From Macrocystis pyrifera (taxonomy: Eukaryota > Sar > Phaeophyceae > Laminariales > Laminariaceae), in assembly GCA_031763025.1 (NCBI GenBank), contig JASSKH010000007.1:12878454-12942453 (forward strand): a stretch of 64,000 bases of DNA. The letters are read 5' to 3'. Shown here in pieces: positions 38,602-64,000 of this stretch. Within the stretch, counting starts at the first letter, position 1. The number at the start of each line of letters is the position of its first letter. Under the pieces are notes generated by a model. The model was not told the origin of the DNA. It searched no databases and saw only the letters and a list, made by a program, of their open reading frames with translations. Both the position numbers and the translations under genes were made by a program.

Positions 38602-38679
38602 CTGGGGGGGAAGGGTGGACGCCAGGTCAGTTCTCACCCGCACACCTTCGACCCTCGTGCTCATCATACAGCAGTACTA

Positions 38680-38791: not shown

Positions 38792-38917
38792 TCGTATCCG
38801 AATGTAGAGTGTAAAACGTGGCGGGGTACGCGGTTTTTGGTTCCATCTTTGGTTTGGTTCTGAATACAATGGTTGAGCATTCCCCCCCCCCCCCCCCCCC
38901 TCCCCCTTATTATATAC

Positions 38918-39004
38918 GATTATATATGGGTTGGGTTGGCGTCGGTTGGCAACGACACTGTAAAACATGCCGCTCACTACGTGAGCTAGACATCCAGGGT
39001 ACCG

Positions 39005-39039
<35 letters not shown>

Positions 39040-39447: not shown

Positions 39448-40157
39448 CCCCCTTCCCGCGCGCGCGCAATAGTTGGTGCTCATGGTTGTGATGAGAGAGG
39501 TCTGTCGCCTCTCGTGTTTTTGATTGGCCGCCGGCAGGGTATGTATGTCATGATATGCGGTGGAACATAATTTAATGTTCTTGTATTTCGTTGTTGTTCT
39601 TGTTTTTTTCTTCTGCCGGCTCTGGGCGAACAAAAATAAAATTTTCGCCTGAAACAACGGACGGTGTTGCGTGTTTCATGCCCGTCTTCTCCGGGTATGA
39701 GTAGATATACATGAACTTATTTTGTTGTTGTTGCTGTTGTTGTTGTTTTCTTGCGCCGGCCGGGCGGGAAAAAAAAAAAAACGTTTTAGCCTACGTACAT
39801 CAGTTGGTGTTAATACTTATAAGCAACGGTGCTGCCGCTTTTTTTTGCCGGGTGTATAGTACTACCTGGCAATATTTACTGAACTCGTCTTTTGGGCCAG
39901 GTTTCAATTCCTATGCGAGGCAGGGTGGACGTTTCGGGCTACACAGCAGTATACCGCTTCTAACTGTTTTTCTTTCAGCATGCAAGAGACAAAATAGGCA
40001 CGGTTTCGCTGTGTTTCGTGCATCAAAAATCGAGGCAGACATAATTTGTTGACACGCGCAGTTATGCGGGGTGCGAGGCGCGGAGGTTAATTCCCCCTCT
40101 TCTGCGAGGGCATTTTTTTGCCATCTTGATTTTCGAGACGTTTGCCCCCCCCCCCCA

Positions 40158-43741: not shown

Positions 43742-44250
43742 GATACGATATTCGACATGTTATTCGATATGATATTCGATATGTTAAGGAAGGTGATACC
43801 TGGTATGCTTTTAGGGGGGGAAGGAGACGCCCGGCCGGGGGGGGGCGGGGAGGACCGACCGACCGGCCGACATTTTCATTTTCTGTCAGGGGGGCGGCGG
43901 GGGCGGTGGGTGGGCAAGTAAAATATTAACACCTTGTAAATGTTCGTGAAGTGGAGAAAAATGAGCACTTGTACCACGTACGATTGCTGGGGCTGATACG
44001 ATATTCGACATGTTATTCGATATGATATTCGATATATTAAGGAAGGTGATGCCTGGTATGCTTTTAGGGGGGGAAGGAAACTCCCGGCCGGGGGGGGCGG
44101 GGAGGACCGACCGACCGGCCGACATTTTTCATTTTCTGCCAGGGGAGCGGGGGGGGGGCGGTGGGTGGGCAAGTAAAATATTAACACCTTGCAAATGTTC
44201 GTGAAGTGGAGAAAAAATGAACACTTGTACCACGTACGATTGCCGGGGCT
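43742..44250 (+). repeat. Tandem duplication, two units of about 253 bp
   Basis: Units at 43742-43994 and 43995-44250. Each starts GATACGATATTCGACATG with internal ATTCGATATG repeats, then CCTGGTATGCTTTTAGG, GACCGACCGACCGGCCGACA and GTGGGTGGGCAAGTAAAATA. Identity is very high, so recent. It lies just outside the large palindrome. Confidence 0.9.
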
Positions 44251-44764
44251 GCTGTTGTCGGTATTTCAGCTTTGAGGGATGCAGGCAGTACTAGCAGAGG
44301 CAACTACATCTATTAACTGGTAACTGGCGGGCGACCTTCGACCGTTTCGTCTTGCCATGTCTTCTACTCCGGACGGAAATATAATAACCATTTGATCGTC
44401 ATATTAATGTCTGAACGTTCCTTATATTTCGGTCCAGAGTAGTACCTGGTACAGGAAGTACCATTTATATGTATGTTTAAGTCGTGGTTCATGCTGGTAG
44501 GCGAAAAACAACATCGAAAACATTGCGTTCGAGTCCCCCCGCGGACGGATGGACGAATAGGCAGACATTCTCAGTTTGTGGAACTGAGTCTCTATTTTGG
44601 TAAATGCAAATCTGTCTGTCTCTGTCTCTCTGTCTGTCTGTCTGTCCGCAAGGCTTATATTTTCGAATACTTTCCAATGGCCGATATACAAGCTCGTTAC
44701 AGATAGATGATATTCGTACGACGTATTCGACCCTCACGGACCTTATTTATACTGAAACATACCG

Positions 44765-44990
44765 TACCACCAGGCAAATTTAGCCATATAATACATCCAC
44801 GACATCGTACCATGGTACCTTACCGCAAACGTACCATACCATATACTGTGTTTTTCCCGTACCATACCGTCAACACATAGCGTACCACATACGGCGGTTT
44901 TCCCATATTCCCACATACCATACCGCCAACATATCCCATATTCCCATACACCATACCACCAATATATCCCATATCCTATACCGAGTTGGG
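44765..44990. repeat. CCATACCGCCAACATATCCCATA-type tandem repeat
   Basis: Imperfect units around CATACCATACCACCAATATA. A matching inverted block is at 62735-62900 in the right arm. Confidence 0.75.
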
Positions 44991-45198
44991 AAGACGTCTA
45001 TACACCAGACCAGGTGCCTGCTACTGCTGGAGTGCCGTTTTGTTGTGCAAGGGTGGCGATGAATACAAGAGTTGGCTCAGACGCCCATACCGAGTTGGGG
45101 AGACGTCTATACATCAAACCAGGTGCCTGCTACTGCTGTAGTGCTGTCTTGTTGTGCACGGGTGGCGATGAATACAAGAGTTGGCTCAGACGCTTGGG
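44990..45198 (+). repeat. Two tandem units of about 107 bp
   Basis: Each unit starts CCGAGTTGGG(A/G)AGACGTC and ends GAGTTGGCTCAGACGC. The right arm keeps both units in inverted form (62.52-62.75 kb), so this duplication predates the palindrome. Confidence 0.85.
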
Positions 45199-45289
45199 TC
45201 TTACGCTCAGTGCAGCGCATTGGCCGCTGGTGTGCACGAAATAGATGAAAAACATTATCTACGAGTACTACTACTACTGCTGTATCTGT

Positions 45290-46395
45290 CTCGAATGGCA
45301 GAAAATGGGCTTTTTTTGCAGGTTTGGGAGGATACCGTAGGACGCCGCCGGCAAGCTCTTGCCCCCAAGAGCATGCATCCACCTCATTTCTTCGAGCCCG
45401 TCATCTATACTAGTTGATCTTTCCCGCCACCGAGCGGGTTGCCCGTGGGCTGAGTCTCTGTCGAGATCGAGCGTCTATCGTCTATCGTCGCACGAGCAGG
45501 TCTTTTACAGTACAACAAACGTGTCGAATGGCAAAAAAAAGGGTTTCTTTTCAGGTTTGGGAGGATACGTTGGACGCCGCCGGCAAGCTCTTGCCCCCTA
45601 GAGCATGCATCCACCTCATTTCTTGGAGCCCGTCATCTATACTAGTTGATCTTGCCCGCCACCGCGCGAGTTGCCCGGGGGCTGAGTCTCTGTCGAGATC
45701 GAATGTCTATCGTGTATCGTCGCACGAGCTGAAATAATACTTTTTTGATGTACTTCGCGTTTCCATTCGCATGCTATACAGCAGGTATTTTACAGTACAA
45801 CAGGAGTGGGTTACTTTTTGTGCCACAGCAAAATTATCGACGAGTACCACTACTGCTGTGTAGTGCAGAGTGCTGTATCCATCTCGAATGGCGAAAAAAA
45901 ATGCATTTCGTCTATTGGTACAACAAACGTCTCGAATGGCAAAAATTGGGCTTTTTCAGTTTTGGGAGGATACCGTAGGACGCCGCCGGCAAGCTCTTGC
46001 CCCCTAGAGCATGCATCCACCTCATTTCTTCGAGCCCGTCATCTATACTAGTTGATATTTCCCGCCACCACCGCGCGGGTTGTCCGTGGGCTGAGTCTCT
46101 GTCGAGATTGCGCGTCTATCGTGTATCGTGGCACGAGCTGAAATAATACTTTTTTGGTGTACTTGGCGTTTCCATTCGCATACCATATATAGCAGGTCTT
46201 TCACAGTACAACAGGAGGAGTGGGTAACTTTTTGTGCCACAGCTAAAATATCTACGAGTACTCCTGTACAGTGCTGTATCCGTCTCGAATGGCATAAAAA
46301 TTGCATACTATCGCAGGTCTTCTACAGCGGCGAAAGGCAAAAAATGTTTTTTTTTTTCAGGTTTGGGAGGATACCGTAGGACGCCGCCGGCAGCA
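45290..46395 (+). repeat. Tandem array of diverged 240-400 bp units, left arm
   Basis: Four units marked by GGTTTGGGAGGATACCGTAG at about 45.32, 45.55, 45.96 and 46.36 kb. Each is followed by CGCCGGCAAGCTCTTGCCCC, GTCATCTATACTAGTTGAT and GAGTCTCTGTCGAGAT. Inverted partners are at 61.35-62.48 kb. A lone unit is at 47.46 kb and a diverged one at 19.24 kb. Embedded short frames are not conserved. Confidence 0.85.
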
Positions 46396-46589
46396 GTGGA
46401 TTACCAGGTACTTCCTACTTGTCGCCTTTATAATTTTGCGATCCTCATCGTATGTTTCGGTACTCGCAAATAATAACCCGCCAGTTGAAAATACATGTCA
46501 ATCTGTCGAATGTGCAACAACCCACAAAATGTTTTTCATTGGCTAACAAAGCGTCGTCATTCGCATACTATATATAGCAGTAGAGTCTG

Positions 46590-46890
46590 GTATCAGTATA
46601 GGGCTACCCTTTCTTTTTCTTTTTCTTGTTCTTTTTCGGTTTGGTTTTTTCGTTGCTTCTCTTTCTTTATGGTGTATTTTGGTTGCTGGCGTATGTATGT
46701 ATGTTGTGTCGGCCGCACCTAGTGCGAAGGCATGGTATTACGTAGGCTATTAATGCATCACGGTGTGTTATCTCTGTGTCGTAGTCTGTGACCACAGAGC
46801 TCGTATCTTTCTAGGGTGAAGAATCAGCACGGACACTGGGCTTGCTGGATGTCGACGAGTAGAAGAACGGTTTAATGTGAAGAACACACA
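46590..46890 (+). mobile_element. 300-bp block present once in each palindrome arm at non-matching sites, left copy
   Basis: Carries TTTATGGTGTATTTTGGTTG, GTCGGCCGCACCTAGTGCGA, GATGTCGACGAGTAGAAGAA and ends near GTGAAGAACACACACAC. The inverted copy is at 53622-53905, about 1.4 kb from the centre, whereas this one is 5.2 kb from it. So it moved independently of the arm duplication. Confidence 0.6.
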
Positions 46891-47589
46891 CACACACCCT
46901 ATATATACCCCCTATACAATATGATCTTTCCGTAGTACTTAGTCATGTTTTTTGCCTCCTAGAGCATGCACCCACGTCATTTCTCATTTGGCCAACAACA
47001 ACTTCGCATACTATAGCACAAGCAGGTATTTTACATTACAACAACAGGAGGAGTGGATTACTTCTTGTGCGACAATAAAGTTATCTATTATCTACGAGTA
47101 CTAATAAAAAATTGCATACTACTAAAAAATTGCATACGAACTATCGTAGGTCTTTTACAACAACAACAGCAGTTAGTTGATTACTTTCTACTTTTCGCCT
47201 TTATTTGTATTTTATTTTGCGATCCTCGTCGTATGTTTCGGTACTCGCAAAAAGAATGACCTAAAATTGCATACTATCGTAGGTCTTCTACAACAGCACA
47301 GTTAGTTGATTACTTTCTACTTTTCGCCTTTTATTTGTATTTTATTTTGCGATCCTCATCGTATGTTTCGGTACTCGCAAAAAACAAATAACCTGGCGGT
47401 TGAAAATACGTCAATCTGTCGAATGTGTAACAACACACAACAAAAAAAATGGGCTTTTTTCAGGTTTGGGAGGATATCGTACGAGGACGCCGGCGGCAAA
47501 AGCTTTTGCCCCCTAGAGCATGCATCCACCTCAGTTCTCATTTCACCAACAACAACTATTTCGCGGTACAGAGATCTCTTGTCAATCTG

Positions 47590-47900
47590 TCGTTTACTTG
47601 TTGTAATAAATAACCGACATGTTTTGCTTTGGCCAAGAGAGCGTCGTCAGCTTTCTGACTGATTGTTGGAGATCTCTCTCCGTTCATGTTTCGTAAATAA
47701 TTGGCCAACAGAGAGCGTCGTCACAGCTCACTGACAAATTGTTGGAGATCTCCCTTTTAGTTTGTGTCCCTCCTCTATGTGTGCCCACACCTGCTTCACA
47801 CTTACTTATCATCCCGCCCTCCCGAGTCCCGCAACACAACAAGAGCACTACCTCCATCATACCGATCAAGGTCTCTAACATCACCACCAATCAACCTCCA
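47590..47900 (+). other. Probable 5' untranslated exon of the cysteine-rich gene, left arm
   Basis: Contains TTGTTGGAGATCTCCCTTTT and a C-rich, Met-poor stretch ending AATCAACCTCCA|GTGAGTTCTT, a good donor. The intron closes at CTTCCTGTGCAG before the coding exon at 48331. The matching block in the right arm is flipped (56.6-56.87 kb) and keeps the donor (CCTCCG|GTGAGT). The transcription start was not identified. Confidence 0.5.
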
Positions 47901-48330
47901 GTGAGTTCTTGCACTTTTGTCATGACTTCTGTTGTATAGCGTGATCGGTTCCTTGTTCGTGTCTTCGATTATAATTTCGTTTTTGATGTGGTATTGTCTG
48001 CTTTTGTTGTCGCTACCGACATTTCCTGTGTGTAGTTTTTGTTTTGCGGTTGTGTTATTATAGATTTGTCGACTCTTCTTCATTTTACCAATATCGATCA
48101 AGATAGGACTTCCAACAAACGGCAACGACCAAGTTGGCTCTTCTTCTCTTCTTTCCGCCGGTGAGGACGCGATTCTCTCTACCATACCTACCGATTTTGA
48201 CCGCAGCCGTGTGTGTTTCATAGCACAATCGACGTGTTTCATGTCTGCTTCATATTGTGCGCAATGCATGAATAACTGTATGATTTTTTTTCAACATGTG
48301 ACGTCCACCTTCCACTGTCTTCCTGTGCAG

Positions 48331-48526
48331 ATATGTCCAGCATGGCAATGGCGGCTCTCTCAGCTTTGGCAGTAGCGCGCGCGGCTTCTGCGAGGGGGTC
48401 CTCCTGCTCTGGGCGTCACATCTCCCGTGCAGACATCGACGATGCGGATTTTGCGCAAGGCTACTTCTGTCTTGTCTGTGGGAACGAGAGGAACAGCTTC
48501 GTCAAGGGCTTTAAGGGTGGCCTCAA
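48331..48526 (+). CDS. Cysteine-rich protein, first coding exon (left arm)
   Basis: After the acceptor CTTCCTGTGCAG, ATG at 48333 opens MSSMAMAALSALAVARAASA, then RADIDDADFAQGYFCLVCGN. The exon ends CCTCAA|GTAAGTATT in phase 2. CLVCGN has the C-x-x-C spacing of a zinc-binding knuckle. The next exon at 51607 completes the Lys codon and adds CEPCGS, giving two C-x-x-C pairs. The protein is 236 aa in total. It is likely intracellular and perhaps zinc-binding; the family is not recognised. The 3.1-kb intron is filled with repeats. Confidence 0.65.
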
Positions 48527-48826
48527 GTAAGTATTTGAATGTCGTCGTATTTAAGCAATAATACAAGTAGTATGTGTCTTCGCGATATTTTGTGCTCCCG
48601 TGTGTCTTATTTGAAGACGTCATGCACTACTGTATTTCATGAAAATTCCCACATGGAAAGACTAAAACCGACAATGTATCAGTCCGAACACATCCATCCA
48701 CCGTCGTACTTCACCGGTAACACTCCGTCCAAGGTTTGCCCCATGAAACGACATTTATTTCATGAGTATTCCGCCGCAGCGTATAGTACGATGTTAAGAT
48801 CAAGCTTGCGGGACACTTTGTATCAC

Positions 48827-48996
48827 TAGACAGGTCTGCCTTTTAAGTTGGTAATCGTTGGTACTCACGTGTGTTGCTTGCTTAGCTATAGAAGAAGAGC
48901 AGTTTTATTCCTAGACAGGTCTGCCTTTTAAGTTGGTAATCGTTGGTACTCACGTGTGTTGCTTGCTTAGCTATAGAAGAAGAGCAGTTTTATTCC
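48827..48996 (+). repeat. Perfect tandem duplication, 2 x 85 bp
   Basis: Unit TAGACAGGTCTGCCTTTTAA ... GAGCAGTTTTATTCC, repeated without visible change. It is absent from the right arm, so it arose after the arms split. Confidence 0.95.
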
Positions 48997-49039
48997 TTTC
49001 GTGCACGCGGAGACTGCGACCAAGCTCGTGCGTCTCTGG

Positions 49040-49175
49040 AAAACCCCTGGTTTTCCATCTAAGATACGCCTTCCAAGTACTACAAATACGTTCCCAGTGA
49101 CTGAACCCAGGTAATTACCGGGCTTTCAACCTCCTACAAAGCAGTATCATTACACTAGCCCACTCTGATGAGCCG
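49040..49175 (-). repeat. Possible second tRNA-derived SINE
   Basis: Read on the minus strand: CAGAGTGGGCTAGTGTAATG (A-box-like), then TACCTGGGTTCAGTCACTGG (B-box-like). No stems close as a tRNA. It is private to the left arm. Confidence 0.4.
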
Positions 49176-49594
49176 TATGTGCAGAATTATGGGAAATTCG
49201 TGGAAACCCCGATTCCACGAACTAGAACATGAGTCGAAGATGCGGCTCCTCAAAACCCAATCCCACACCTCTGAACGGCGAGGCAACGAAGCCGGTAAAG
49301 TACGTAAAAAACTAAAGTGAAGACCTAGCCTTAAGGGGCAGGAAGAAATCGTCAATGAAAGCCATCGCCAAGCCGCCCGCACGGGGGGGGGGGGGGGGGA
49401 GATGCATGGAAAAGTGAAAAGATTCCTGGGCCGCAATTGAGCGGCCGAGTGCCCAGACCAGTCCCGACACTGAGCGGGGGGGGTAGGCAGGACAAAATAC
49501 GCAAAAACACATCCCCAAATCAGCCCAAAAAAAACAAAGGAAAACACACCAGAAACATATCGGACAGACAAAAAAATCATGCCCCAAAGTCCAG

Positions 49595-49856
49595 GAAGAC
49601 GATGTACACAAAAACCTAAATAATATTTCGCTATTTTTAACATCTGGCCCTATTTACTTAAGGTACAGACCAAAATCTATTTTCCGCTATTTTTACTGAC
49701 AATATTTTTTTTGTCCTATTTACTACTGTGTAGTCCCCCGTAATATTACCGGGGACGACCTACGATATACACAAACACCCAAAAAAAAAATTAGCGATTT
49801 TTACCATCAAATATTTGGTGCTATTTACTATGGTCCCCCGTATTACTACAGAGCAG
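49595..49856. repeat. Degenerate family A elements, left arm
   Basis: Two to three partial copies with TAGTCCCCCGTAATATTACC at the junction. The reverse copy lies at 54515-54750, so these predate the arm duplication. Confidence 0.65.
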
Positions 49857-49869
49857 AATAATAAACCCA

Positions 49870-50860
49870 CACTTCAACTTGTTGATTAATTTGGTCAAAT
49901 CGGGTTGATTTAATCATGATTACTTGAATATATTCAACGCAATCAACCCCTTGTAATATGTGTAATCTGCTTCATATATTTTGAGTCATGGGCCTATGCT
50001 ATTCGTATTTTTTTTTTTTTTTTTTTTAATCATCACGTTTACCTTCCAGCCTAACTCGTAGGAGGTTTTGCCCTCAGCGATCTTCTGGACAACCCGTGGT
50101 CACAGGTGTCGTCCCTTCTCCCCCCCGGTACTTGTCGCGCGTAGGGTTCAGCATTCCCACTGCTCGTCGATTTTCATCAAATGTAGCTAACCCACGCTCT
50201 CGCGCTTTCCGCTAATCAATTTTTTATGCAAGAAAAAGTCCCTACGAGCATGCACTCGGTGAGACGTGAACCCACGAAATTGATCTTGATAGGCACGCGG
50301 ACCACCTACCAAGCCGGCGGGGATGTACATTAACTCATTTTCGGAGTTGATTTTATTGTTGATTGATTTGGCGAAAGCGGGTTGATTTAATCATGATTAG
50401 TTGACTATATTCAACGCAATCAACCCCTTGCAATATGTGTAATCTGCTTCATATATATTGAGCCACGGTTTATGCTATTCGTAGGGATGTACATTAACTT
50501 ATTTTCGGAGTTGATTTTATTGTTGATTATTTACCCAAACTGTGTTGATTTAATCATGATTAGTTTATTATAATCAACGCAATCAACCCTTGTAATACGG
50601 AGTTGATTTTATTGTTGGTTGATTTCGCGAAAGCGAGTTGATTTAATCATGATTAGTTGACTATATTCAACGCAATCAACCCCTTGCAATATGTGTAATC
50701 TGCTTCATATATATTGAGCCACGGTTTATGCTATTCGTAGGGATGTACATTAACTTATTTTCGGAGTTGATTTTATTGTTGATTAATTAACCCAAACTGC
50801 GTTGATTTAATCATGACTAGTTGATTATAATCAACGCAATCAACCCTTGTAATACGGAGA
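49870..50860. repeat. Array of GTTGATTTTATTGTTGATT / AATCAACGCAATCAACCC units
   Basis: Four imperfect units of 100-300 bp (two near 50.34-50.57, others near 49.88 and 50.6-50.85). Each has TTCGGAGTTGATTTTATTG and TTTAATCATGA(T/C)TAGTTGA. Units have self-complementary ends (GTTGATT ... AATCAAC), like tandemly amplified small inverted-repeat elements. The array is interrupted by the SINE. The right arm has only single units (53.53-53.62, 54.32-54.42 kb). Confidence 0.75.
50008..50315 (-). repeat. tRNA-derived SINE, copy 2 (left arm)
   Basis: Runs from a T run (A tail on the minus strand) through TAGGAGGTTTTGCCCTCAGC and CGTGGTCACAGGTGTCGTCC to CCACCTACCAAGCC (tRNA-like head). It has the same orientation as copy 3 in the right arm, not inverted, so these are independent insertions. 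Confidence 0.8.
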
Positions 50861-51606
50861 CGAGCAGAATCATCCATTCCCACCCCTCCCTCACTTTCGT
50901 ATGCGGCGGAGGTGCCCTTAACCCTTCAGTGCTGTGAACCGAAAACCGACTTATTTGAAGCCGTCCGCGTTTTCGTATACAGCGGGTTTTCCCTGACTGC
51001 CCTTACACTATAAGAACAGAATGCTTCGTGCCCACCCCTTACTTTCGTATACGGAGGTGTCCTTATTACCCCTGTCAGTGCTGATAACGTTTTTTTCACC
51101 GAAAAACTACATATTTTAGTCTGTTTTTCGGTTGAAAAAACTCTTGTCCCTTCCGGCAATAATAGCGCTTTGATGTCGTATAGAAACCTCTTCTTACGTT
51201 TTGATATGCATTACGCCGCGCGACACAGCCAGCACGCAGCCCATAGCCAGCACGCAGTCCACAGCCCGCAACAGGATGCCAGCATAGCAGCACCACTGTA
51301 CTCTTTTGTTCCCATACCAGTACAACCAGTCAGTGTCAACTGCGTCTTCCCACCCATAACTTTCGTATACAGAGGGGGTCCACCTATAACCCATGCTACC
51401 ACCTCGCAAACCTTGTGCGGTTGTTTTTTATCTCAGGTGCAGAGATACAGCACATAAATCTCGCCTGCAGTCTTATTCAATACGGTGGTAGTACTTGCAA
51501 ACAATACGCACACGACACCCACTGATTGAAAACGGCATATTGTCACGAGTTGACTGTGTTTGTACGAATATCGTTCTTTTGGCGCCTCCTTTTATCCTTG
51601 TTACAG

Positions 51607-52123
51607 GTGCGAACCATGCGGTTCCTACACATCTTCAACATCTACGGAGACCTCGAAGCCCCCGCTGTGCTGCCTTCTTTGCGCGGTTGATCTGGAGCCG
51701 GCGTCGCCATACTTGAAAGCAATTGCAGACAGCTGTGCGGAGCCGGGATCGCGTCCCGCTATGGAATATTTTCATGCTGACGGTCAGTGTTGCGAGCCGT
51801 CCGCAGTGTCTAGCGACAATGTAGACCCTTGCGCGGGTGAGGATTGCAAAATCATTCCAGTGTACGATTTATTTGGGGACGGGGTTGCTGCCCTGAAGTT
51901 CTGCGGCCCTTGCTTCATCAAGCAGCGGGTCGGGCATGACTACATAGTCGCCGCAAACGCGGCAAAAAGAAACACGTACCAAAGCCCCTCCAAAAAACGG
52001 CGCAAGCAAGTGATGATTGATGCCGGGGGCTTTGTCGCGTTCAATTGGCATGAACCAGCCAGTAGTCTAGTAGTAACTAGTAGCGCTGCTGCTGAAAATA
52101 TATGTCCCCGCCGAGTGCTATAA
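51607..52123 (+). CDS. Cysteine-rich protein, second coding exon (left arm, to stop)
   Basis: The acceptor CCTTGTTACAG gives phase 2 in frame with the exon at 48526. It encodes CEPCGSYTSS, LCCLLCAVDLEPASPYLKA, HADGQCCEPS, DPCAGEDCK and FCGPCFIKQR, with at least four more cysteine pairs. A basic stretch (SKKRRK) could be a nuclear signal. The last 13 or so residues are encoded past the end of the arm, in the palindrome's unique centre, so the native C-terminus may have been different. Family not recognised. Confidence 0.65.
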
Positions 52124-52273
52124 CAAGTGGTATCGATAGTCAACGACTGTGTACGGTAGGGACGATAGATGGTCCGGTTGCCAGCAGTCATGGCGCATTC
52201 CCTCACAAATTCAACCTCTCCCGCAGTGAAACGCCGAGTAGAATCCCAACAATTTTTTCCAACCTACACCCGT
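52083..52273. other. Unique centre of the palindrome, 191 bp
   Basis: Sequence between the arms, starting GCGCTGCTGCTGAAAATATA and ending CCAACCTACACCCGT. Not self-complementary. The left gene's stop codon falls in it. No promoter or terminator motif is recognisable. Confidence 0.85.
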
Positions 52274-52339
52274 TACTAGTTACTACTAGACTACTGGCTG
52301 GTTCATGCCAATTGAACGCGACAAAGCCCCCGGCATCAA

Positions 52340-52760
52340 TCACCACTTGCGCCGTCTTTTGGAGGGGCTTTGGTACGTGTTTCTTTTTGCCGCGTTTGCG
52401 GCGACTATGTAGTCATGCCCGCTTCGCAGGAGCATGACCCGCTGCTTGATGAAGCAAGGGCCGCAGAACTTCAGGGCAGCAACCCCGTCCCCGGATAGAT
52501 CATACACTGGAACGCTTTTGCAATCATCACCCGCGCAAGGGTCTACAGTGTCGCTAGACACTGCGGACGGCTCGCAACACTGACCGTCAGCATGAAAATA
52601 TTCCATAGCGGGACGCGATCCCGGCTCCGCACAGCTGTCTGCAATTTTTTTGAAATATGGCGACGCCGGCTCCAGATCAACCGCGCAAAGAAGGCAGCAC
52701 AGCGGGGGCTTCGAGGTCTCCGTAGATGTTGAAGATGTGTAGGAACCGCATGGTTCGCAC
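52340..52760 (-). pseudogene. Cysteine-rich gene, second coding exon copy (right arm)
   Basis: Nearly identical to 51607-52027 in reverse, with an intact acceptor (TTGTTACAG). Relative to the left copy it has a 15-nt in-frame insertion (five residues after CFIKQRV) and, near the end, a 4-nt deletion (CGCAAGTGG for CGCAAGCAAGTGATG) that brings a stop after RRRKW. The rest of its gene is also broken. Confidence 0.75.
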
Positions 52761-53621
52761 CTGTAACAAGGATAAAAGGAGGCGCCAAAAGAACGATATT
52801 CGTACAACCACAGTCAACTCGTGACAATATGCCGTTTTCAATCAGTGGGTGTCGTGTGCGTATTGTTTGCAAGTACTACCACCGTATTGAATAAGACTGC
52901 AGGCGAGATTTATGTGCTGTATCTCTGCACCTGAGATAAAAAACAACCGCACAAGGTTTGCGAGGTGGTAGCATGGGTTATAGGTGGACCCCCTCTGTAT
53001 ACGAAAGTTATGGGTGGGAAGACGCAGTTGACACTGACTGGTTGTACTGGTATGGGAACAAAAGAGTACAGTGGTGCTGCTATGCTGGCCTCCTGTTGCG
53101 GGCTGTGGACTGCGTGCTGGCCATGGGCTGCGTGCTGGCTGTGTCGCGCGGCGTAATGCATATCAAAACGTAAGAAGAGGTTTCTATACGACATCAATGC
53201 GCTATTATTGCCGGAAGGGACAAGAGTTTTTTTTCAACCGAACATCAGACTAAAATATGTAGTTTTTCGGTGAAAAAAAACGTTAACAGCACTGACAGGG
53301 GGTAATAAGGACACCTCCGCATACGAAAGTAAGGGGTGGGCACGAAGCATTCTGCTCTTATAGTGTAAGGGCAGTCAGGGAAAACCCGCTGTATACGAAA
53401 ACGCGGACGGCTTCAAATAAATCGGTTTTCGGTTCACAGCACTGAAGGGTTAAGGGCACCTCCGCCGCATACGAAAGTGAGGGAGGGGTGGGAATGGATG
53501 ATTCTGCTCTTCTCCGTATTACAAGGGTTGATTGCGTTGATTATATTCAACTAGTCATGATTAAATCAACGCAGTTTGGGTTAATTAATCAACAATGAAA
53601 TCAACTCCGAAAATAAGTTAA

Positions 53622-53905
53622 TGTGTGTGTTCTTCACATTAAACCGTTCTTCTCCTCGTCGACATCCAGCAAGCCCAGTGTCCGTGCTGATTCTTCACCC
53701 TAGAAAGATACGAGCTCTGTGGTCACAGACTACGACACAGAGATAACACACCGTAATGCATTAATAGCCTACGCAATACCATGCCTTCGCACTAGGTGCG
53801 GCCGACACAACATACATACATACGCCAGCAACCAAAATACACCATAAAGAAAGAGAAGCAGCGAAGAAACCAAACCGAAAAAGAAAAAGAAAAGGAGAAG
53901 AATCC
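53622..53905 (-). mobile_element. 300-bp block at a non-matching site, right copy
   Basis: Inverted partner of 46590-46890 with high identity (GTCGACATCCAGCAAGCCCA, TCGCACTAGGTGCGGCC). Its flanks here are the GTTGATT-type unit on one side and CCAAATAAATAAATAAAATG on the other. Confidence 0.6.
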
Positions 53906-53988
53906 CAAATAAATAAATAAAATGGGAAGCCAACATCCCTACGAATAGCATACACCCATGACTCAAAATATATGAAGCAGATTACACA

Positions 53989-54314
53989 TTTTTTTTTTTT
54001 TTTTTTTTTGAAATGATCACTTTTACCCTCTCCAGCCTAATTCGTAGGAGGTTTTGCCCTCAGCGATCTTCTGGACAACCCGTGGTCACAGGTGTCGTCT
54101 CTTCTCCCCCCCGGTACGTGCCTTTATTTTTTGTCGCGCGTAGGGTTCAGCATTCCCACTGCTCGTCGATTTTCATCAAATGTAGCTAACCCACGCTCTC
54201 GCGCTTTCCGCTAATCAATTTTTTATGCAAGAAAAAGTCCCTACGAGCATGCACTCGGTGAGACGTGAACCCACGAAATTGATCTTGATAGGCACGCGGA
54301 CCACCTACCAAGCC
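53989..54314 (-). repeat. tRNA-derived SINE, copy 3 (right arm)
   Basis: Same order as copy 2, with a 12-nt longer stretch before TTGTCGCGCGTAGGGTTCAG. Full length, T run to CCTACCAAGCC. Confidence 0.8.
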
Positions 54315-54514
54315 ACCCGGGGGTTGATTGCGTTGAACATAATCAAGTAATCATGATTAAATCAACCCGATTTGGCCAAATCAATCAACAATAAAATCAA
54401 CTCCGAAAATGAGTTAATGTACACCCCTACGAATAGCACACACATGAGTCTAAAGATACGAAGCAGATTCCACGTACGAAGTACAAGTTGAAATGGGTTT
54501 ATTATTCTGCTCTG

Positions 54515-54750
54515 TAGTAATAAGTAGACCAAATGTTTGATGGTAAAAATCGCTAAATATTATATAGACTGGTGTTTGTGTATATCGTAGGTCGTCCCCG
54601 GTAATATTACGGGGGACTATACAGTAGTAAATAGGACAAAATATTGTGGGTAAAAAGTGGCGGAAAATAGATTTTGGTCTGCACCGTAAGTAAATAGGGC
54701 CAGATGTTAAAAATAGCGAAATATTATTTAGGTTCTTGCGTATGTCGTAC
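54515..54750. repeat. Degenerate family A elements, right arm
   Basis: Inverted counterpart of 49595-49856 (GGTAATATTACGGGGGACTA). Shared between the arms. Confidence 0.65.
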
Positions 54751-55022
54751 TATACGCTGCGACGGAATACTCATGAAATAAAAGTCGTTTCATGGGGAAA
54801 ATCTTGAACGGAGTGTTACCGGTGAAGTACGACGGTGGATGGATGTGTTCGGACTGATCCGAGTATATTGTCGGTGTTGTTTTAGTCTTTTCATGCGGGA
54901 ATTTTCATGAAATAAAGTAATGCATGACGTCTTCAAATAACACACACGAAAGCACAAAATATCGCAAAGGCACGGACTACTTTTGTATTATTTCTTAAAT
55001 ACGACGACATTCAAGTACTTAC

Positions 55023-55911
55023 TTGAGGCCACCCTTAAAGCCCTTGACGAAGCTGTTCCCCCGTTCCCACAGACAAGACAGAAGTAGTCTTGTGTTATGG
55101 TATCCCCTCTCCCCTGTTGGGGCGTTATATTCCCCTCTCCCCTGTTGCGGCGTTCTGATTTGTAGCAATCGTCCCCTCATCATGGATGGGTCTCAGGCTA
55201 GCTTATGCCGCTCCTGGCTACGCGAGTTATACCGCTTCCTCGAGTTTAAGTCCTCGATTTAGCTTCCGGGTAGTTCTAGCTTAATCTGCCAGCTTCCGCG
55301 TAACCGTACTTGCGGACTTGTTGTCGGATTCGCAATGTCACGTGTAATCGGCTACCGCCTTACAGGTTAGAGGTGTGGGAGTAGTGGGTTGTGTAGTGTC
55401 GCATCTTCGATCCATTTTCCGAATTCTCCGGATTGTTTTAGTTCTTTCCTGAGTTTCCATGAATCTGCATATACGACCCGTCAGGGTGGGCTAGTGTTAT
55501 GGTATCCCCTCCCCCCTGTTGGGGCGTTATATTCCCCTCTCCCCTGTTGGGGCGTTATATTCCCCTCTCCCCTGTTGCGGCGTTCTGATTTGTAGCAATC
55601 GTCCCCTCATCATGGATGGCAGGCGTTGTCGCCTGCTTTTCCGATGAGCGCCTCGCCCCTTCGTTCAGAAGACATCTGGCGAGGCAAACCGCAACTAATA
55701 CAAGAGCTTAACCCATCCTCAAGCACCTCGTGTGAGTGACCAGAGCAGAGCCAAAGGCATCAACCTGCTAGCAGTAGTCGGTCCCTAGGTCCATACTGCC
55801 TTACACTTAACACTTGCGCAAAATCCGCATCGTCGATGTCTGCACGGGAGATGTGACGCCCAGAGGAGGAGGACCCCCCCGCAGAAGCCGCGCCCGCTGC
55901 TGCCAAAGCTG
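55023..55911 (-). pseudogene. Cysteine-rich gene, first coding exon copy, split (right arm)
   Basis: Pieces 55023-55092 and 55813-55911 together equal the 3' four fifths of the exon at 48331-48526 in reverse. They are separated by the 720-bp insertion at 55093-55812 and cut at 55911 by a hAT-type element. The missing 5' end, with the start codon, now lies at 57297-57330 in opposite orientation. The donor (rc TCAA|GTAAGTA) is still present at 55022. Confidence 0.8.
55093..55812. mobile_element. Solo-LTR-like insertion with 4-bp target duplication
   Basis: 720 bp starting TGTTATGGTATCCCC and ending CTTACACTTAACA, so TG...CA ends, flanked by CTTG at 55089-55092 and 55813-55816. The left palindrome arm has the empty site with one CTTG. 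Inside, a block of about 95 bp (CCCCTCTCCCCTGTTGGGGC ... CATCATGGATGG) occurs twice. No coding frame. TG/CA ends and a short duplication fit an LTR. Confidence 0.7.
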
Positions 55912-56256
55912 GAGGGGTGGACAGACCTTGATAGTAGATCTTTATGGGGGTTTTGTGTTGGACGCCTGAAGCCGACCCTCCGACCCCAACCCTAACCCTA
56001 ACCCTAACCCGAACCCTATGTCAGTGGTCAGTGCTGGGATGCTGTGCCTGTTAAGACCCTAGGTTGGCTCGGCCGGCGTGGATGCTGAGCTTGGGAAGAC
56101 TCTAGGTTGACTCGGGATGGCTCGGGATGCTGTGGCTGGGAAAGACTCGAAAGTTGATTAAGCCGCGTAAAAAAAAAAACCTAGCCAATCAGAGTGCCTA
56201 ATTAGCTACCCCAGGAAGATCTACTATCAAGGTTTGTCCACTACTGGAACTACTGT
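55912..56256. mobile_element. hAT-type non-autonomous element, copy 1
   Basis: Ends GAGGGGTGGACAGACCTTGA and, at the other side, TCAAGGTTTGTCCACTACTG. It contains CCCTAACCCTAACCCTAACC. The adjacent gene sequence CAAAGCTG (55904-55911) is matched by its reverse complement at 57323-57330, the 8-bp duplication typical of hAT elements, once the intervening inversion is undone. Confidence 0.7.
55986..56010. repeat. Interstitial telomere-type repeat
   Basis: About three and a half CCCTAA units inside the hAT-type element. An inverted copy, GGGTTAGGGTTAGGGTT, is at 57377-57394 in the second element. Confidence 0.85.
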
Positions 56257-56257
56257 G

Positions 56258-56340
56258 AAAAAGTCCCTACGAGCATGCACTCGGTGAGACTTGAAACCAC
56301 GAAATTGATCTTGGTAGGCACGCGGACCACCTACCAAGCC
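56258..56340 (-). repeat. SINE head fragment, displaced
   Basis: tRNA-like head (GGTCCGCGTGCCTACCAAG on the minus strand) whose body now lies at 57975-58162 on the opposite strand. The split point is the hAT-type insertion site. Confidence 0.75.
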
Positions 56341-57330
56341 ACCGGGGACGCCGAAAATACGTCAATCTGTCGAATGTGTAACAACACACAACAAAAAATG
56401 GTCTTTTTTTCAGGTTTGGGAGGATACCGTAGGACGCCGGCGGCAAACGCTCTTCTTGCCCCCAAGAACATGCATCCACCTCAGTTCTCATTTCGCCAAC
56501 AACAACTATTTCGCGGTACAGAAATCTCTTGTCAATCTGTCGTTTACTTGTTGTAATAAACAACCGACATGTTTTGCTTTGGCCAAGAGAGCGTCGTCAG
56601 CTTTCTGACTGATTGTTGGAGATCTCTCCCCGTTCATGTTTCGTTTTTCATTGTTGGCCAAAACAGAGAGCGTCGTCACAGCTCACTGACAAATTATTGG
56701 AGATCTCCCTTCAAGTTTGTGTCCCTCCTCTATGTGTGCCCACACCTGCTTCACACTTACTTATCATCCCGCCCTCCCTAGTCCCGCAACACAACAAGAG
56801 CGCTACCTCCATCATACCGATCAAGTCAGGTCTCTAACACCACCACTAAACAACCTCCGGTGAGTTCTTGCGCTATTGTCATGACTTCTGTTGTGTAGCA
56901 TGATCGGTCTCCTTGTTCGTGTCTTCGATTAGAATTTCGTTTTTGATGTATGTATGTGGTGATGCCTGCTTTTTTTGTTGTCGCTACCGATATTTCCTGT
57001 ACGTATTTTTTGTTTTGCGGTTGTGTTGTTATGGATTTGTCGACTCTTCTTCATTTTATCATTATCGATCAAGACAGGACTTCCAACAGCAACGACCAAG
57101 TTGGCTCTTCTTCTCTTCTTTCCGCCGGTGAAGACGCGATTATCTCTACCATACCTACCGATTTTGACCCCAGCCGTTTGTGTTTCATAGCACAATCGAA
57201 GCGTTTCATGTCTGCTTCATATTGTGCGCAATGCATGAATAACTGTATGCTTTTTTTCAACATGTGACCTCTACCTTGCACTGCCTTCCTGTGCAGATAT
57301 GTCCAGCACGGCAACGGCGTCTCAGCTTTG
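56341..57330 (+). pseudogene. Inverted 1.1-kb segment with 5' part of the right-arm gene copy
   Basis: Collinear with 47.39-48.37 kb instead of inverted, contrary to its surroundings. It carries one array-unit remnant, the 5' untranslated exon with donor CCTCCG|GTGAGT near 56.86 kb, the intron, the acceptor TTCCTGTGCAG, and the start codon at 57299, cut after CAGCTTTG at 57330. Confidence 0.75.
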
Positions 57331-57973
57331 CAGTAGTGGACAAACCTTGATAGTAGATCTTCCTGGGGTAGCTACGGGTTAGGGTTAGGGTTGGGGTCGG
57401 AGGGTCGGCTTCAGGCGTCCAACACAAAACCCCATAAAGATCTATGTGATGCGGAGACCGCTCTAGGGTAGTGGTAAGGGTAGTGGTAAGGGACGCAGGT
57501 GGTTCTGGCAGCTGGAAAGCAGTGCTTCGCTTCTTCTGATTTAGATTTTCTTATTGATGGCGAGAGCTGAGGAGGTGCTCTGGTAGAGAAGTGAGAGGTA
57601 GGGGGGGCGGGACTCGACGCCCAGATATACTCGTCCCACCCCACGCCACAAGCTCTCCTAAATTCCTCTTATCTGATGTACGCCTACAGAACTTTCCTAT
57701 GGCTACCGATCGTTCTTCTGCTAATATAAGAATATCTCACTTCGTGATCCTATCTGCGTTAAGGAACATTACTCTCATCTAAGGGGTTTTCCGCCCTAGG
57801 GAACATTCCTAAGAGAACGTTACTCTCAACTAACGGAATATCCGCCGGGTTAATCCATTCTTTGGATTATTCTCGTATTCGTGAGACTACAAGACTGCAA
57901 CGTATTATCTATATCTATAGTCCATGAATACTCCACCCGTATCACATCTACTATCAAGGTCTGTCCACCCCTC
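57331..57973. mobile_element. hAT-type non-autonomous element, copy 2 (longer)
   Basis: Starts CAGTAGTGGACAAACCTTGA and ends GGTCTGTCCACCCCTC, opposite in orientation to copy 1. About 640 bp. It shares GGTTAGGGTTGGGGTCGGAG through CACAAAACCCCATAAAGATC with copy 1 and has 450 bp of extra internal sequence with no recognisable transposase. Confidence 0.7.
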
Positions 57974-57974
57974 C

Positions 57975-58162
57975 TTTTTCTTGCATAAAAAAATGATAAG
58001 CGGAAAGCGCGAGAGGGTGAGTTAGCTACATTCGATGCAAATCGACGAGCAGTGGGAATACTGAACCCTATGCGCGACAAAAAAATAAAGGTACGTACCG
58101 GGGGGGAGAAGGGACGACACCTGTGACCACGGCTTGTCCAGAAGATCGTCGAGGGTAAAAAC
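57975..58162 (+). repeat. SINE body fragment
   Basis: TTTTTCTTGCATAAAAAAAT to GATCGTCGAGGGTAAAA, the continuation of the head at 56258-56340. Confidence 0.75.
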
Positions 58163-58164
58163 TT

Positions 58165-58870
58165 GTGGGTTTTTGCCAAAATCAGGCATACCTGGCCACT
58201 TTCGTGCCAAAAACAGTTACATACTGAAATCAAGTACAAAACACACACCAGGAGCCCTGCTATTGGCCAAGCTGACATTGTAACTGATTTTGGCACGAAA
58301 AGGCCAAGGTACACCTGATTTTTTCTACTTTGTCTAGCTTTCAACTGATTTTGGCCAACTTTGAACCAATCAGAGAGGCCATACGTACACTGCGTTTTTT
58401 TTCCGTATGCGTCTGCCCTCCCTCGGTTGAAATTCTCCTGTATTGACGTATAAACTCTGTACTCGTACGTACCTACGTCGTACGTAAAAGTACGTATATA
58501 CATGCACACATGCGTACGCTGGTTTCACTTTTTTTTCTCCTTTGGGGTGTGTGTGCGGTGTGCTTCAGTTTGTTGTTGTATGTACTCTGTTGTTTTCCAT
58601 GTTCACAGCAGTCTTTACAGCACCATGGACACTCGGCGTCTCGTCTGCACCATCCCGCGTCGAGGTGGTCTCAGGTTTGGTACGGCAAGATAATTTCGTG
58701 CCGAGCAGGCGGTTCCGCGAGGACGGTCGGGAAGCCTTAAAGCTGTCAACGGGGGGGGGGCGTCAGAGTAAATACCTTTGGCGCTCCCGCCGTGGCGAAA
58801 CAAAGGAAGCATATTAATAGTGACTCTCTGCAGGTCCAAGTGGAGCCCGTGGTACCTACACCCTGAAGAA
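58165..58870 (-). repeat. Diverged third copy of the 32-36 kb inverted-repeat sequence
   Basis: Shares CCCTGCTATTGGCCAAGCTG, TTGAACCAATCAGAGAGGCC and CACCATCCCGCGTCGAGGTG with 35.27-35.57 kb. Private to the right palindrome arm. Confidence 0.6.
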
Positions 58871-59199
58871 AACAAAACAATTCAGATTTTGGAGGCCATG
58901 TGGCACGCTTAATGCTTAGCGCATTCTTTTTTAACCGGATTGTCATGACCATCACACCGCTCGTGGCGCGCGTTTTATACTTGGTTTTAGAATGTACCTG
59001 ATTTTGGCTCAAACGGATCAGGTATACCTGATTTTGGCAAAAATACTTCCTTCGTACGAGTTTGGCTGGAAGGTAAAAGTGATGATTAAAAAAAAAAAAA
59101 AAAAAAACAACTGCTGGCTTATTATTTTTGCGAGTACCGAAACATACGATGAGGATCGCAAAATACAAAATTTTAAATGTTGTTATTGCCCTCGATGAG

Positions 59200-61020
59200 A
59201 TGCATTCGAGCGCTGTTCTCAGTTTGCCTGTCTCTTTTTTTGTGAAGTTACAGGTGAGGTTGTTGAGAGTGACGGGAGAGGCCAGTCCGGACCAGCACAG
59301 ACGGAACCCCAGAGTGCTGTGTTTGGCTCAGGCAGAGCGTCTATTGATGAGGTGTAGTAATTGGGGTTGCAGGGCTAAATACCAGACTGTTGGCCAATCA
59401 ATGAAAAACGAAACATGAACGGGGAGAGATCTCCAACAATCAGTCAGAAAGCCGACGACTCTCTCTTGGCCAAATCAAAACATGTCGGTTGTTTATTTCA
59501 ACAAGTAATAAACGAACAGATTAGATTGACAAGAGATCTCTGTACCACGAAATAAGAGCTGATCGGTACTGCTGCTGTATCATGTTTTTGCTTTTTTTCT
59601 CATTGTTTTGATCACCTACTGCTTGTAGCCTTTATTCTCTCGTCCTAGTTGTTGGCGAAATGAGAACTGAGGTGGATGCTTGCTCTAGGGGGCAAGAGCT
59701 TGCCACCGGCGTCCTACGGTATCCTCCCAAACCTGAAAAAAGCCCATTTTTTGTTGTGTGTTGTTTGTTACACATTCGACAGATTGACGTATTTTCAACT
59801 GCCGCCGGGGTATATTATTTTTGCGAGTACCGTACGACGAGGATCCCAAAATACAAATAAAGGCGGAAGTAGAAAGTAATCAACCAACTGCTGTTGTAAA
59901 AGACCTACGATAGTATGCAATTTTGGGTCATTCTTTTTGCGAGTACCGAAACATACCAAGAGGATTGCAAAATACAAATAAAGCTTGCAAAGTTGAGTAT
60001 CAACTATTTGTTCTCCCCGGATTCGGAAAACTAATAATTACATTTTACTACCTGGTATGTACGGTATTCAATTGGATTCGGAAAATAAATAATTATATTA
60101 ATATTATTATTTCGTTTCGTGCACGCGCGTGTAGTCAGAACACCAAGACAGAGACCTACCTGGTACGAGTACGTACGTACTACTACTACTACTGCTGTGG
60201 GGTGGATTCCATGCTGGACGCATGAAAATTGTCCGTAAATGTAAGAAACGTTTTGTATCAATATTTATAATTAAACGGTTCTTGAACTTCCGGACAGAGT
60301 GGTAATGCGACCACAGGTTTTCCGGATTCTAAAAAGCATCAACCAGCAACTCCCCCAGAACAATAACAGCAGCCCATACGTATCCCCCCAGATCTTGCGC
60401 TTTTTATTACAGCTTTTACATCCGTGCGCCAGCGTGCAACAGCCCTGTGCCCACAAGTCTCCGTCAAAGCGGCAGACACCTAATAGTAGGCAGCGAGCAG
60501 AGCTCTCTAAATAAATATAAGATAATACTCTCCTCCTCCTCCTCCTCTCCTCCTCCTTCTCTTCCTCCTTTTTCGCTCGTTATTATACCAGGTAATAATA
60601 CTACTATGCCCGAAAAACAGACAGCACAGCACAGCACAGCTGCTGCAGTGTTTGAGGCAGATAGATGCGAGACAGAGAGAGGCAGTGCGAAACGGAGAAA
60701 GTACAGAAATCGAAAAAATCAACTACTACGGTAGTACCGGTCGGTACTATTTTTTTTGTTTATTTGGTGGTGGTTAGTGTTGTTGAAACCCCACCGGGAA
60801 ATGTTTGGAAACAGTCAACGTTGAAGGAGGAAGTGAGCCCCGCCCGTCTTTTTTTCGTCAGTTGTTTCAGTTTTTCAGTCAGTATATAAAATGATATCCA
60901 ACATCCAGAATCCAGATAAAAAACACTAATCCAGATCCAGCCTCCAACATCCAACGATGTTGGCGCCGTTGCTGCTTGCTGTGCTTCCAAATTTACTCAA
61001 ATATGTTATTACATGGGGGG
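59200..61020. other. Right-arm stretch, mixed arm remnants and private sequence
   Basis: 59.37-59.9 kb corresponds inverted to 47.4-47.7 kb (GGGGAGAGATCTCCAACAAT). 60.0-61.0 kb is private, with ACT and CTC microsatellites. No gene seen. Confidence 0.55.
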
Positions 61021-61349
61021 TTAATCAGTCGAACTCACAGCTGACGTATTTCAAAATTTATGAAATAAAGGCGAAAAGTAGAAAGTAATCAACTAACTGC
61101 TGTTATTGTAAAAGACCTACGATAGTTAGTATGCATTTTTTTAGTAGTAGTAGTAGTTTTCAGGCTCTACTGCTGCTATATATAGTATGCGAATGACGAC
61201 GCTTTGTTGGCCAATGAAAAACATTTTGTGGGTTGTTACACATTCGACAGATTGACATGTATTTTCAACTGGCGGGTTATTATTTGCGAGTACCGAAACA
61301 TACGATGAGGATCGCAAACAAATATAGGCGAAAAGTAGGAAGTAATCCA

Positions 61350-62480
61350 CTGCTGTCGGCGGCGTCCTACGGTATCCTCCCAAACCTGAGAAAAGCCCAT
61401 TTTTGCCTTTCGCTGCTGTAAAAGACCTGCGATAGTATGCATTTTTTTTGCCATTCGAGACGGATACAGCACTACTACAACAGTAGCAGTACTCGTAGAT
61501 AATTTTGCTGTGGCACAAAAAGTAACCCACTCCTGTTGCATGCGAATGCAAACGCCAAGTACACCAAAAAAGTATTATTTCAGCTCGTGTCACGATACAC
61601 GATAGACGCGCGATCTCGACAGAGACTCAGCCCACGGACAACTCGCGCGGTGGTGGGCAAGATCAACTAGTATAGATGACGGGCTCGAAGAAATGAGGTG
61701 GATGCATGCTCTAGGGGGCAAGAGCTTGCCGGCGGCGTCCTACGGTATCCTCCCAAAACTGAAAAAGCCCAATTTTTGCCATTCGAGACGTTTGTTGTAC
61801 CGATAGACGAAAGGCATTTTTTTTGCCATTCGAGACGGATACAGCACTCTGCACTACAGTAGTACTCGTCGATAATTTTGCTGTGGCGCAAAAAGTAACC
61901 CACTCCTGTTGTACTGTAAAAGACCTGCTATAGTATGCGAATGGAAACGCGAAGTACACCAAAAAAATATTATTTCAGCTCGTGCCACGATACACGATAG
62001 ACGCTCGATCTCGACAGAGACTCAGCCCACGGGCAACCCGCGCGGTGGCGGGAAAGATCAACTAGTATAAATGACGGGCTCGAAGAAATGAGGTGGATGA
62101 ATGCTCTAGGGGGCAAGAGCTTGCCGGCGGCGTCCAACGGTATCCTCCCAAACCTGAAAAGAAGCCCTTTTTTTGCCATTCGACACGTTTGTTGTACTGT
62201 AAAAGACCTGCTCGTGCGACGATAGACGATAGGCGATAGACGCTCGATCTCGACAGAGACTCAGCCCACGGGCACCCCGCTCGGTGGCGGGAAAGATCAA
62301 CTAGTATAGATGACGGGATCGAAGAAATGAGGTGGATGCATGCTCTAGGGGGCAAGAGCTTGCCGGCGGCGTCCTACGGTATCCTCCCAAACCTGAAAAA
62401 AAAGCCCATTTTCTGCCATTCGAGACAGATACAGCAGTAGTAGTACTTGTAGATAATGTTTTTCATCTATTTCGTGCACA
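61350..62480 (-). repeat. Tandem array of 240-400 bp units, right arm
   Basis: Inverted counterpart of 45290-46395 with four units (CGGTATCCTCCCAAACCTGA at about 61.37, 62.15 and 62.38 kb; CTCCCAAAACTG at 61.75). The same order of units in both arms shows the array existed before the palindrome formed. Confidence 0.85.
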
Positions 62481-63059
62481 CCAGCGGCCAATGCGCTGCA
62501 CTGAGCGTGGGACCCAAGCATCTGAGCCAACTCTTGTATTCATCGCCACCCGTGCACAACAAGACAGCACTACAGCAGTAGCAGGCACCTGGTCTGGTGT
62601 ATAGACGTCTCCTCAACTCGGTATGGGCGTACGGGCGTCTGAGCCAACTCTTGTATTCATCGCCACCCTTGCACAACAAGACGGCACTACAGCAGTAGCA
62701 GGGACCTGGTCTGGTGTATAGACGTCTCCCCAACTCGGTATGGGATATGGGACATATTGGTGGTATGGTATATGGGATATGTTGGTGGTATGGTATATGG
62801 GAATATGGGAAAACCGCCGCATGTGGTATGGTATGTGTTGACGGTATGGTACGGCAAAAACACAGTATATGGTAAGTTACGTTAGCGGTAGGTACCATGG
62901 TACGATGTCGTGGATGTATTATATGGCTAAATTTGCCTGGTATGATATGTTTCAGTATATAAGGTCCGTAAGGGTCGAATACGTCGTACGAATATCATCT
63001 ATTTGTATCGAGCTTATATATCGGCCATTGGAAAGTGTTCGAAAATATAAGCCTTGCGG

Positions 63060-63093
<34 letters not shown>

Positions 63094-63095
63094 AG
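63060..63095. repeat. (GACA)n microsatellite, right palindrome end
   Basis: Matches inverted (TCTG)n at 44611-44646 in the left arm. Unit numbers differ between arms. Confidence 0.9.
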
Positions 63096-63147
63096 ATTTG
63101 CATTTACCAAAACAGAGACTCAGTTCTACAAACTGAGAATAGCACCC

Positions 63148-64000
63148 ATCTAAGACCATGTCTCGCGCCCATTTCGTGCTTTTCCTTGCATTGATAGCTA
63201 TGTCTCGCGCCCATTCCGTGTCTTTCCTTGCATTGATTCACAGAGAAACCAAACTTATCTATCTGTCGTCCGTCTCCCAACCGAGCAGCGAATGGCCGAT
63301 GACAATGTCTGCTGCCCTCGTTTTTTTTTTTTTCATTGTCGTCAGTTTTTTTCCTCTGCACTTGCTGTACACTATACAGTATGGGCCCGCCAACAAGAAC
63401 CACGTACTCGTAATCTGGGCAAGCCTGAGATTCTCATTGGGGCGCCATCTTCAAACAACCTTGAGCATAGGTTATTATATAGAATTTTGTGTAGAGCTCA
63501 CCACTGAGCCGTTTTCTTGGCCTAATTTTCTTGGCGTTCTCCAAAAGTGAGCATTGTGTTCTTTTTGGGCATTTTCTTATTGGCGGGCCTATACTATAAT
63601 GAAGTCCCAAAAGGGTTATGAGATGTTACGGGGGACCATAGTAAATACCTGGTAGGACCTACGGTACACACACAAATCTATCATATTTAATTTCCCTATT
63701 TTTGCTAATAATATTTGGTCCTATTTACTATGGTCCCCCGTAACAGTTCCCTCGCCTCACCTTTTCTAGCGTCACCATTGCGGTGGTGCACGTTGTTTAT
63801 ACTACCAATAGTAGAGAGGTAAACAAGGCAAGAGGCGGCCTCATAATGAGGCAAGGCCGTGTGGGTCCGAAGAAAACAAGCGAAAACACGCACACTCGCA
63901 CGAAATCCCGCCGCACTCTTAAACACACCACCAAAACCACAAAGCTACAGCATCCCGGCGACCGCGACAGCTTCAAGACGGCGTGCGAGGAGACACGCCC
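63148..64000. other. Right flank of the palindrome, no gene seen
   Basis: Two 42-bp tandem units at 63158-63238 (ATGTCTCGCGCCCATT(T/C)CGT). Otherwise unremarkable apart from a family A copy. Open frames are short and without splice context. Confidence 0.5.
63625..63746. repeat. Family A element, last copy
   Basis: GTTACGGGGGACCATAG to GGTCCCCCGTAACAG, with a 6-nt insertion (CCTGGT) in the left arm of the element. Confidence 0.85.

Follow-up and report, generated by a model that had tools for sequence, protein, structure and literature searches.

A giant kelp palindrome bounded by the ends of a dispersed, putatively Helentron-like element

The palindrome and its two sides

The genome of the giant kelp Macrocystis pyrifera contains an imperfect palindrome of 18.6 kb whose two outer edges, as a sequence search revealed, are the same end of a dispersed element of ~3.1 kb that we call unit A. 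The palindrome lies in a stretch of 64,000 nucleotides (C221:12878454-12942453; hereafter the window, to which unprefixed coordinates refer), and the assembly that we searched holds 537,376,219 bases in 223 contigs. The giant kelp reference assembly is described as 537 Mb in 223 contigs, with an N50 of 13,669,674 and a largest contig of 26 Mb; its PacBio reads averaged 15.8 kb in length, and the source was a haploid female gametophyte (PMC10498591). A first-pass annotation, made from the sequence alone, had read the palindrome as one old inverted duplication with gene conversion near its centre. Comparison of the window with itself bears out the edges and the 191-bp centre that it gave: an outer inverted match pairs 44567-46589 with 63140-61161 (91.0% with gaps), an inner one pairs 50747-52085 with 53624-52271 (96.2%), and an exact match, 52061-52082/52295-52274, flanks the centre. 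Eight inverted blocks, a hand-picked collinear set from this comparison, span 4,720 of the 7,519 left bases and 4,678 of the 10,870 right bases. The claim that the arms carry the same sequence inverted holds in these blocks, but it fails where 47402-48375 matches 56353-57336 in direct orientation, one large block that breaks the mirror, and where the right side has two copies of unit A positions 2495-2789.

That the structure is an assembly artefact, either a fold-back read or a misjoined pair, is highly improbable, and here we agree with the first-pass annotation. The mean read is shorter than the whole structure, which leaves some room for such an error, but the window contains no N, and the arms differ by 2-8% in substitutions as well as by private insertions. 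A misassembled allele pair is disfavored in particular because the source gametophyte was haploid.

The left side reads in the forward direction. It opens with unit A at 44567-47711, running from the 5′ end to unit position 2797 and carrying a private insertion at ~46611-46895; we number unit A along the copy on contig C197, whose positions 1-2012 and 2008-2797 the left side matches. Inside this unit lies a low-copy passenger of ~4.4 kb, E2 (47711-52083, forward strand), with few matches outside the window: for 47720-48254 these are confined to contig C205 and a single 75% piece on C195, while the next 200 bp (48254-48460) are also matched on C191 and C28. E2 contains an 85-bp perfect tandem, an insertion of ~808 bp (48792-49598) and an insert resembling a short interspersed element (SINE; 50008-50315), and the C205 arm lacks both insertions at the corresponding place. 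It also holds an open frame of 189 amino acids (51554-52123, forward strand), with relatives on C219 (60% amino acid identity) and C200 (42%). The first-pass annotation placed gene copies in both arms, a claim that we find weak: the left frame is open, but its right-arm copy is interrupted, the copy on C205 is split, and a Pfam search matched neither the frame nor two relatives. Differences at codon positions 1, 2 and 3 number 3, 4 and 6 against the right arm and 13, 7 and 9 against C205, a spread that gives no clear sign of selection. The frame is a probable captured gene fragment. The centre begins with a fragment of the unit A tail (52085-52144, forward strand; positions ~2887-2947 by comparison with unit A copies), followed by 62 bp (52145-52206) that match nothing in six copies, the C205 stretch or the window.

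The right side is not a mirror copy of the left. Read inward from the outer edge on the reverse strand, it begins with a unit A′ that has a 3′ end of its own, after which comes a 5′-truncated unit with a passenger, E2′. Unit A′ occupies 59177-63141, from its 5′ end at 63141 to a 3′ end at 59177 (...GGGCAATAACAACA), and lacks positions ~2833-2943. Nine bp from that 3′ end lies the truncated start of the second unit (59108-59168, reverse strand; unit A 2436-2495), whose next part, unit A 2495-2789 with the start of E2′, sits flipped onto the forward strand at 56353-57336 as the direct match to 47402-48375. Positions 2495-2789 are present both at ~59792-59390 and at 56353-56653. The neighboring 56257-56352 (reverse strand) is the head of a SINE-like element once inserted at unit position 2495. 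The rest of E2′ (52207-55911, reverse strand) comprises the inner arm at 52271-53624 and further blocks out to 55911, and 52207-52270, past the arm edge, is common to C205 and C191. A private insertion at 53622-53899 is 97% like left 46615-46892 but in a different place, and a SINE-like element with poly(A) at 53990-54314 (reverse strand), whose head looks tRNA-like by eye, differs from the left SINE-like insert in place and relative orientation. A tRNA scan found no tRNA and an Rfam scan of the window gave 0 matches. The second-unit segment that runs in the opposite direction sits between two small transposon-like copies, termed Z, with swapped flanking duplications. The flip apparently arose by recombination between these two small transposons, since the duplications are swapped as such recombination would leave them.

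Unit A and its resemblance to known elements

Unit A is a high-copy family. Used as a query, 44540-45300 found 49 matches, with 40 of 1,938 candidates scored. Excluding the query itself there are 39 main matches, of which 32 begin at window positions 44564-44569; the window's own right side scored lower than two copies that lie on other contigs. The 22-base tip, allowing at most two mismatches, occurs 1,053 times in the genome (511 forward, 542 reverse), against 0 for a reversed control. The array units and paired 107-bp units of the first-pass annotation belong to unit A as internal repeats and recur in its copies elsewhere. Four of the six units that we followed inward (C137, C197, C189 and C203) have a common 3′ end, ...GAGGGCAATAACA, which continues with ATA in three of them; the C197 copy is ~3.1 kb long. 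None of these four has an inverted partner in the fetched stretch, and C206 matched over the first part only. Because the two ends of these four units differ, we rejected a foldback DNA transposon with long terminal inverted repeats; C204 holds two unit A copies tail to tail. We likewise rejected a retrotransposon long terminal repeat, as unit A has neither TG..CA ends nor a flush target duplication, and a long interspersed element with a variable 3′ tail, a candidate prompted by an end in CAATAACAATA, as the 5′ boundary is constant.

Both ends have hairpin potential. At the 5′ tip a 7-bp hairpin folds with a z-score of -3.97, and its pattern CTCAGT...CTGAG is found in 28 of 32 copies (one of the other four, c205a, lacks the tip). 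At the 3′ end, an inverted repeat matching the 5′ tip lies just upstream of a second hairpin (fold z -2.26); among 15 distinct 3′ ends the repeat, CAAACTGAGAA, is exact in 12 and the hairpin, CTCGA...TCGAG, in nine. We inspected the flanks of 16 copies, four of which have no 3′ end in the fetched stretch. By eye, an A precedes TTCTCAG in 15 of the 16 and a T follows AACAA in 9 of 12, with no empty site recovered, and none of the 12 copies with both ends, which include two near-identical pairs, shows a flush target-site duplication; GGTACCAA is repeated in C203 and C211, yet 17 bp off the 3′ end.

From its ends, which resemble those of Helitron2 and HINE elements, unit A appears to be a non-autonomous Helitron2/Helentron-like element. 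In Helitron2 elements an asymmetric inverted repeat at the 5′ end forms a hairpin there (Bao and Jurka 2013, PMC3627910). Unit A shares with that group a 5′ hairpin-forming repeat with a 3′ copy just upstream of the 3′ hairpin, and like Helitron-1N1_CRe it lacks a target duplication; it differs in that the 3′ repeat lies ~36 bp from the 3′ end rather than ~20-30, and in that CRe-1, 2 and 3 have target duplications where we saw none (PMC3627910). HINE/DINE-1 elements likewise have subterminal inverted repeats, near the 5′ end and 38-60 bp from the 3′ end, a 3′ stem-loop, and internal microsatellite and tandem repeats (Thomas et al. 2014, PMC4067079), all with counterparts in unit A, although unit A resides in a brown alga, measures ~3.1 kb, and has flanks that look like A^T, not a proven T-rich target (PMC4067079). 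A transposase source may exist in the genome, where Helitron_like_N has 63 matches, three of them within frames open for 1,439-1,646 amino acids. In a further difference from Helitron2, no RepHel element with unit A ends was linked: among the first-listed places of the 1,053 tips we noted one close pair, on C141, which we rejected as an autonomous partner, no unit A being there in register. The word "Helitron" is absent from the main text of the reference genome paper (PMC10498591) and occurs once in another Macrocystis paper (PMC8958530), and we make no claim that the family is unreported.

Divergence, kinship and the order of events

The first-pass annotation described arms nearly identical beside the centre and increasingly diverged outward. 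Near-identity is borne out over ~1.3 kb: the inner 1.34 kb differs at 28 of 1,335 sites (2.1%). The outward rise is not what we find, as the middle blocks differ by 7.6% (20/262, 49599-49870), 6.3% (21/335, 48456-48791) and 4.0% (4/99, 48361-48459), the outer 2 kb by 4.7% (91/1952); the direct block differs by 6.9% (66/960). The inner tract stands apart from the pooled inverted middle blocks (45/696, ~6.5%; p=1.8e-6) and from the outer part (p=8.5e-5). Like chromosome palindromes with arm-to-arm conversion, the locus has facing arms, a short spacer and a homogenized tract of raised identity adjoining the centre; it differs from them in that decayed mobile elements make up its arms, homogenization extends over just 1.34 kb and no working gene is evident. 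We infer that gene conversion between the facing arms is the best account of the inner tract, as the first-pass annotation had suggested, though partial copying at a later time would leave the same pattern.

Kinship between the two sides, which the first-pass annotation asserted, also stands. In a tree of the outer 2 kb with nine rows (C137, C206 and c205a, present in a 12-row tree, were left out), the two sides are sisters with 97/97 support and share 11 private substitutions; the 12-row tree supports the pair at 86/94. A 32-row tree covers the first 735 bp only and has unsettled bootstrap values; it gives the pair 91/84, with three substitutions absent from the 30 others. The same tree pairs two units on C205 at 91/91. 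That contig carries a single A-E2 arm with the left-type junction and no palindrome, its E2 7-12% diverged. Beyond the arm come a sequence S, an insertion whose ends are direct repeats of 97% identity, and a plain unit A. A-E2, S and the plain unit all run in one direction, and it is the A-E2 unit and the plain unit that are sisters. Neighbor likeness at two loci suggests local descent or conversion, and the same-direction sisters on C205 mean that local kinship needs no inverted duplication.

These comparisons bear on the first-pass model itself, in which one old A-E2 arm was duplicated in inverted orientation, the right arm was then rearranged, and conversion acted near the centre. In its favor, the outer parts are sisters, outer and middle divergence fit a single age (p=0.07), and in all five segments compared the left-right pair has more shared states than either side has with C205 (left-right : left-C205 : right-C205 = 75:13:12, 15:9:7, 27:8:12, 8:1:3 and 46:33:27). 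We nonetheless regard it as rather improbable. Both edges are formed by the end of a mobile element with many copies, C205 shows the left-type junction, and the two arms are not copies of one contiguous arm, because the right side has a 3′ end at 59177 and a second copy of 2495-2789 that are both missing on the left.

We propose instead, with moderate confidence, that the palindrome is a local set of non-autonomous Helitron2/Helentron-like unit A copies in opposite orientations, the left one carrying E2, and that it represents a broken and inverted array. The element end common to both edges, the two right units, the flipped segment and the homogenized inner 1.34 kb can all be read directly from the sequence; the order of events reads as insertion, truncation, a transposon-mediated flip and probable conversion. 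In addition, the 3′ tail at 59177-59349 would once have belonged to the left unit, because the left copy breaks off at 2947 and the right resumes at 2943-2950, like halves of one tail. A break and inversion of ~7.2 kb (52145-59349) would then have reversed part of a head-to-tail array so that its units came to lie head to head; flipping 52145-59349 back gives the left unit a complete 3′ end, with the second unit then head to tail. By our own estimate, such agreement within a tail of ~320 bp would arise by chance in a few per cent of cases, and so we favor this inversion without claiming it. Gene conversion between the facing arms would afterwards have homogenized them in their inner tract and perhaps also in their outer 5′ parts.

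A different possibility is that two separate unit A insertions in opposite orientation occurred at different times, with a small deletion on the right and no large inversion. From the 511 and 542 ends, chance alone would give ~9.6 convergent pairs of 5′ ends within 18.6 kb, the 110-bp gap on the right could be a plain deletion, and over the first 735 bp the two sides agree at 95.3%, no more closely than the copy C204a agrees with either of them (95.4% and 96.2%). We had initially expected the outer parts to be unrelated insertions, but their sister placement in the nine-row tree, with its 11 private shared substitutions, weakens that expectation, and E2, nearly unique in the genome, is present on both sides; we consider separate insertions unlikely. 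On balance we favor the broken inverted local array over a single inverted duplication, and claim no proof of it.

Related loci and significance

Other loci display related arrangements. On C191 (five copies) and C28 (one), S is joined directly to an E2 piece, repeated direct and inverted; this rearranged relative of the passenger lies at L091 3882-5778 (C191:10816381-10818277). At locus L040 a unit A 3′ end directly abuts another unit A that lacks its first bases, forming a head-to-tail pair. Three pairs of units group tightly with 100% bootstrap (C211/C203, C189c/C189d and C149/C206b; loci L023/L024, L076/L079 and L087/L089), and on C211 the loci at 4.47 and 4.84 Mb have the same flanks; both observations suggest recent duplications. 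A rather improbable idea, drawn from the A-E2-S-A′ order on C205, is that Helentron-like units may carry low-copy host DNA trapped between two copies as a composite, read from the first 5′ end to the next 3′ end; if such an array were flipped, the resulting palindrome would have facing arms that continue to convert each other, holding a captured gene fragment in step on both sides.

The window also holds other repeats. A dispersed repeat of ~120 bp occurs on both strands at 100-234, 341-461, 10098-10311, 20411-20539, 22122-22237, 24284-24406, 33698-33938, 36707-36853, 38678-38796 and 63604-63750, and a piece resembling it (GTCCTATTTACTATGGTCC) follows several unit A 3′ ends elsewhere. A family of ~330-590 bp, with 72-92% identity and in both orientations, lies at 1377-1920, 8753-9108, 16682-17092, 17973-18551 and 38882-39452. 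Very long homopolymers, possibly in part a sequencing effect, comprise 136 G (17101-17236) and 100 C (6674-6773), and a tandem duplication of ~255 bp (94%) lies at 43742-44251, just outside the left outer edge.

The palindrome is thus real, and a fairly ordinary set of Helentron-like units with a passenger, inverted and rearranged; the coordinates of the first-pass annotation were good, and its model was partly wrong. More broadly, a striking palindrome can derive from a common rolling-circle-type transposon with no special inverted duplication needed, and the order of events can be read at this one locus. The unit A family, with more than 1,000 tips, would be a useful repeat model for kelp annotation.
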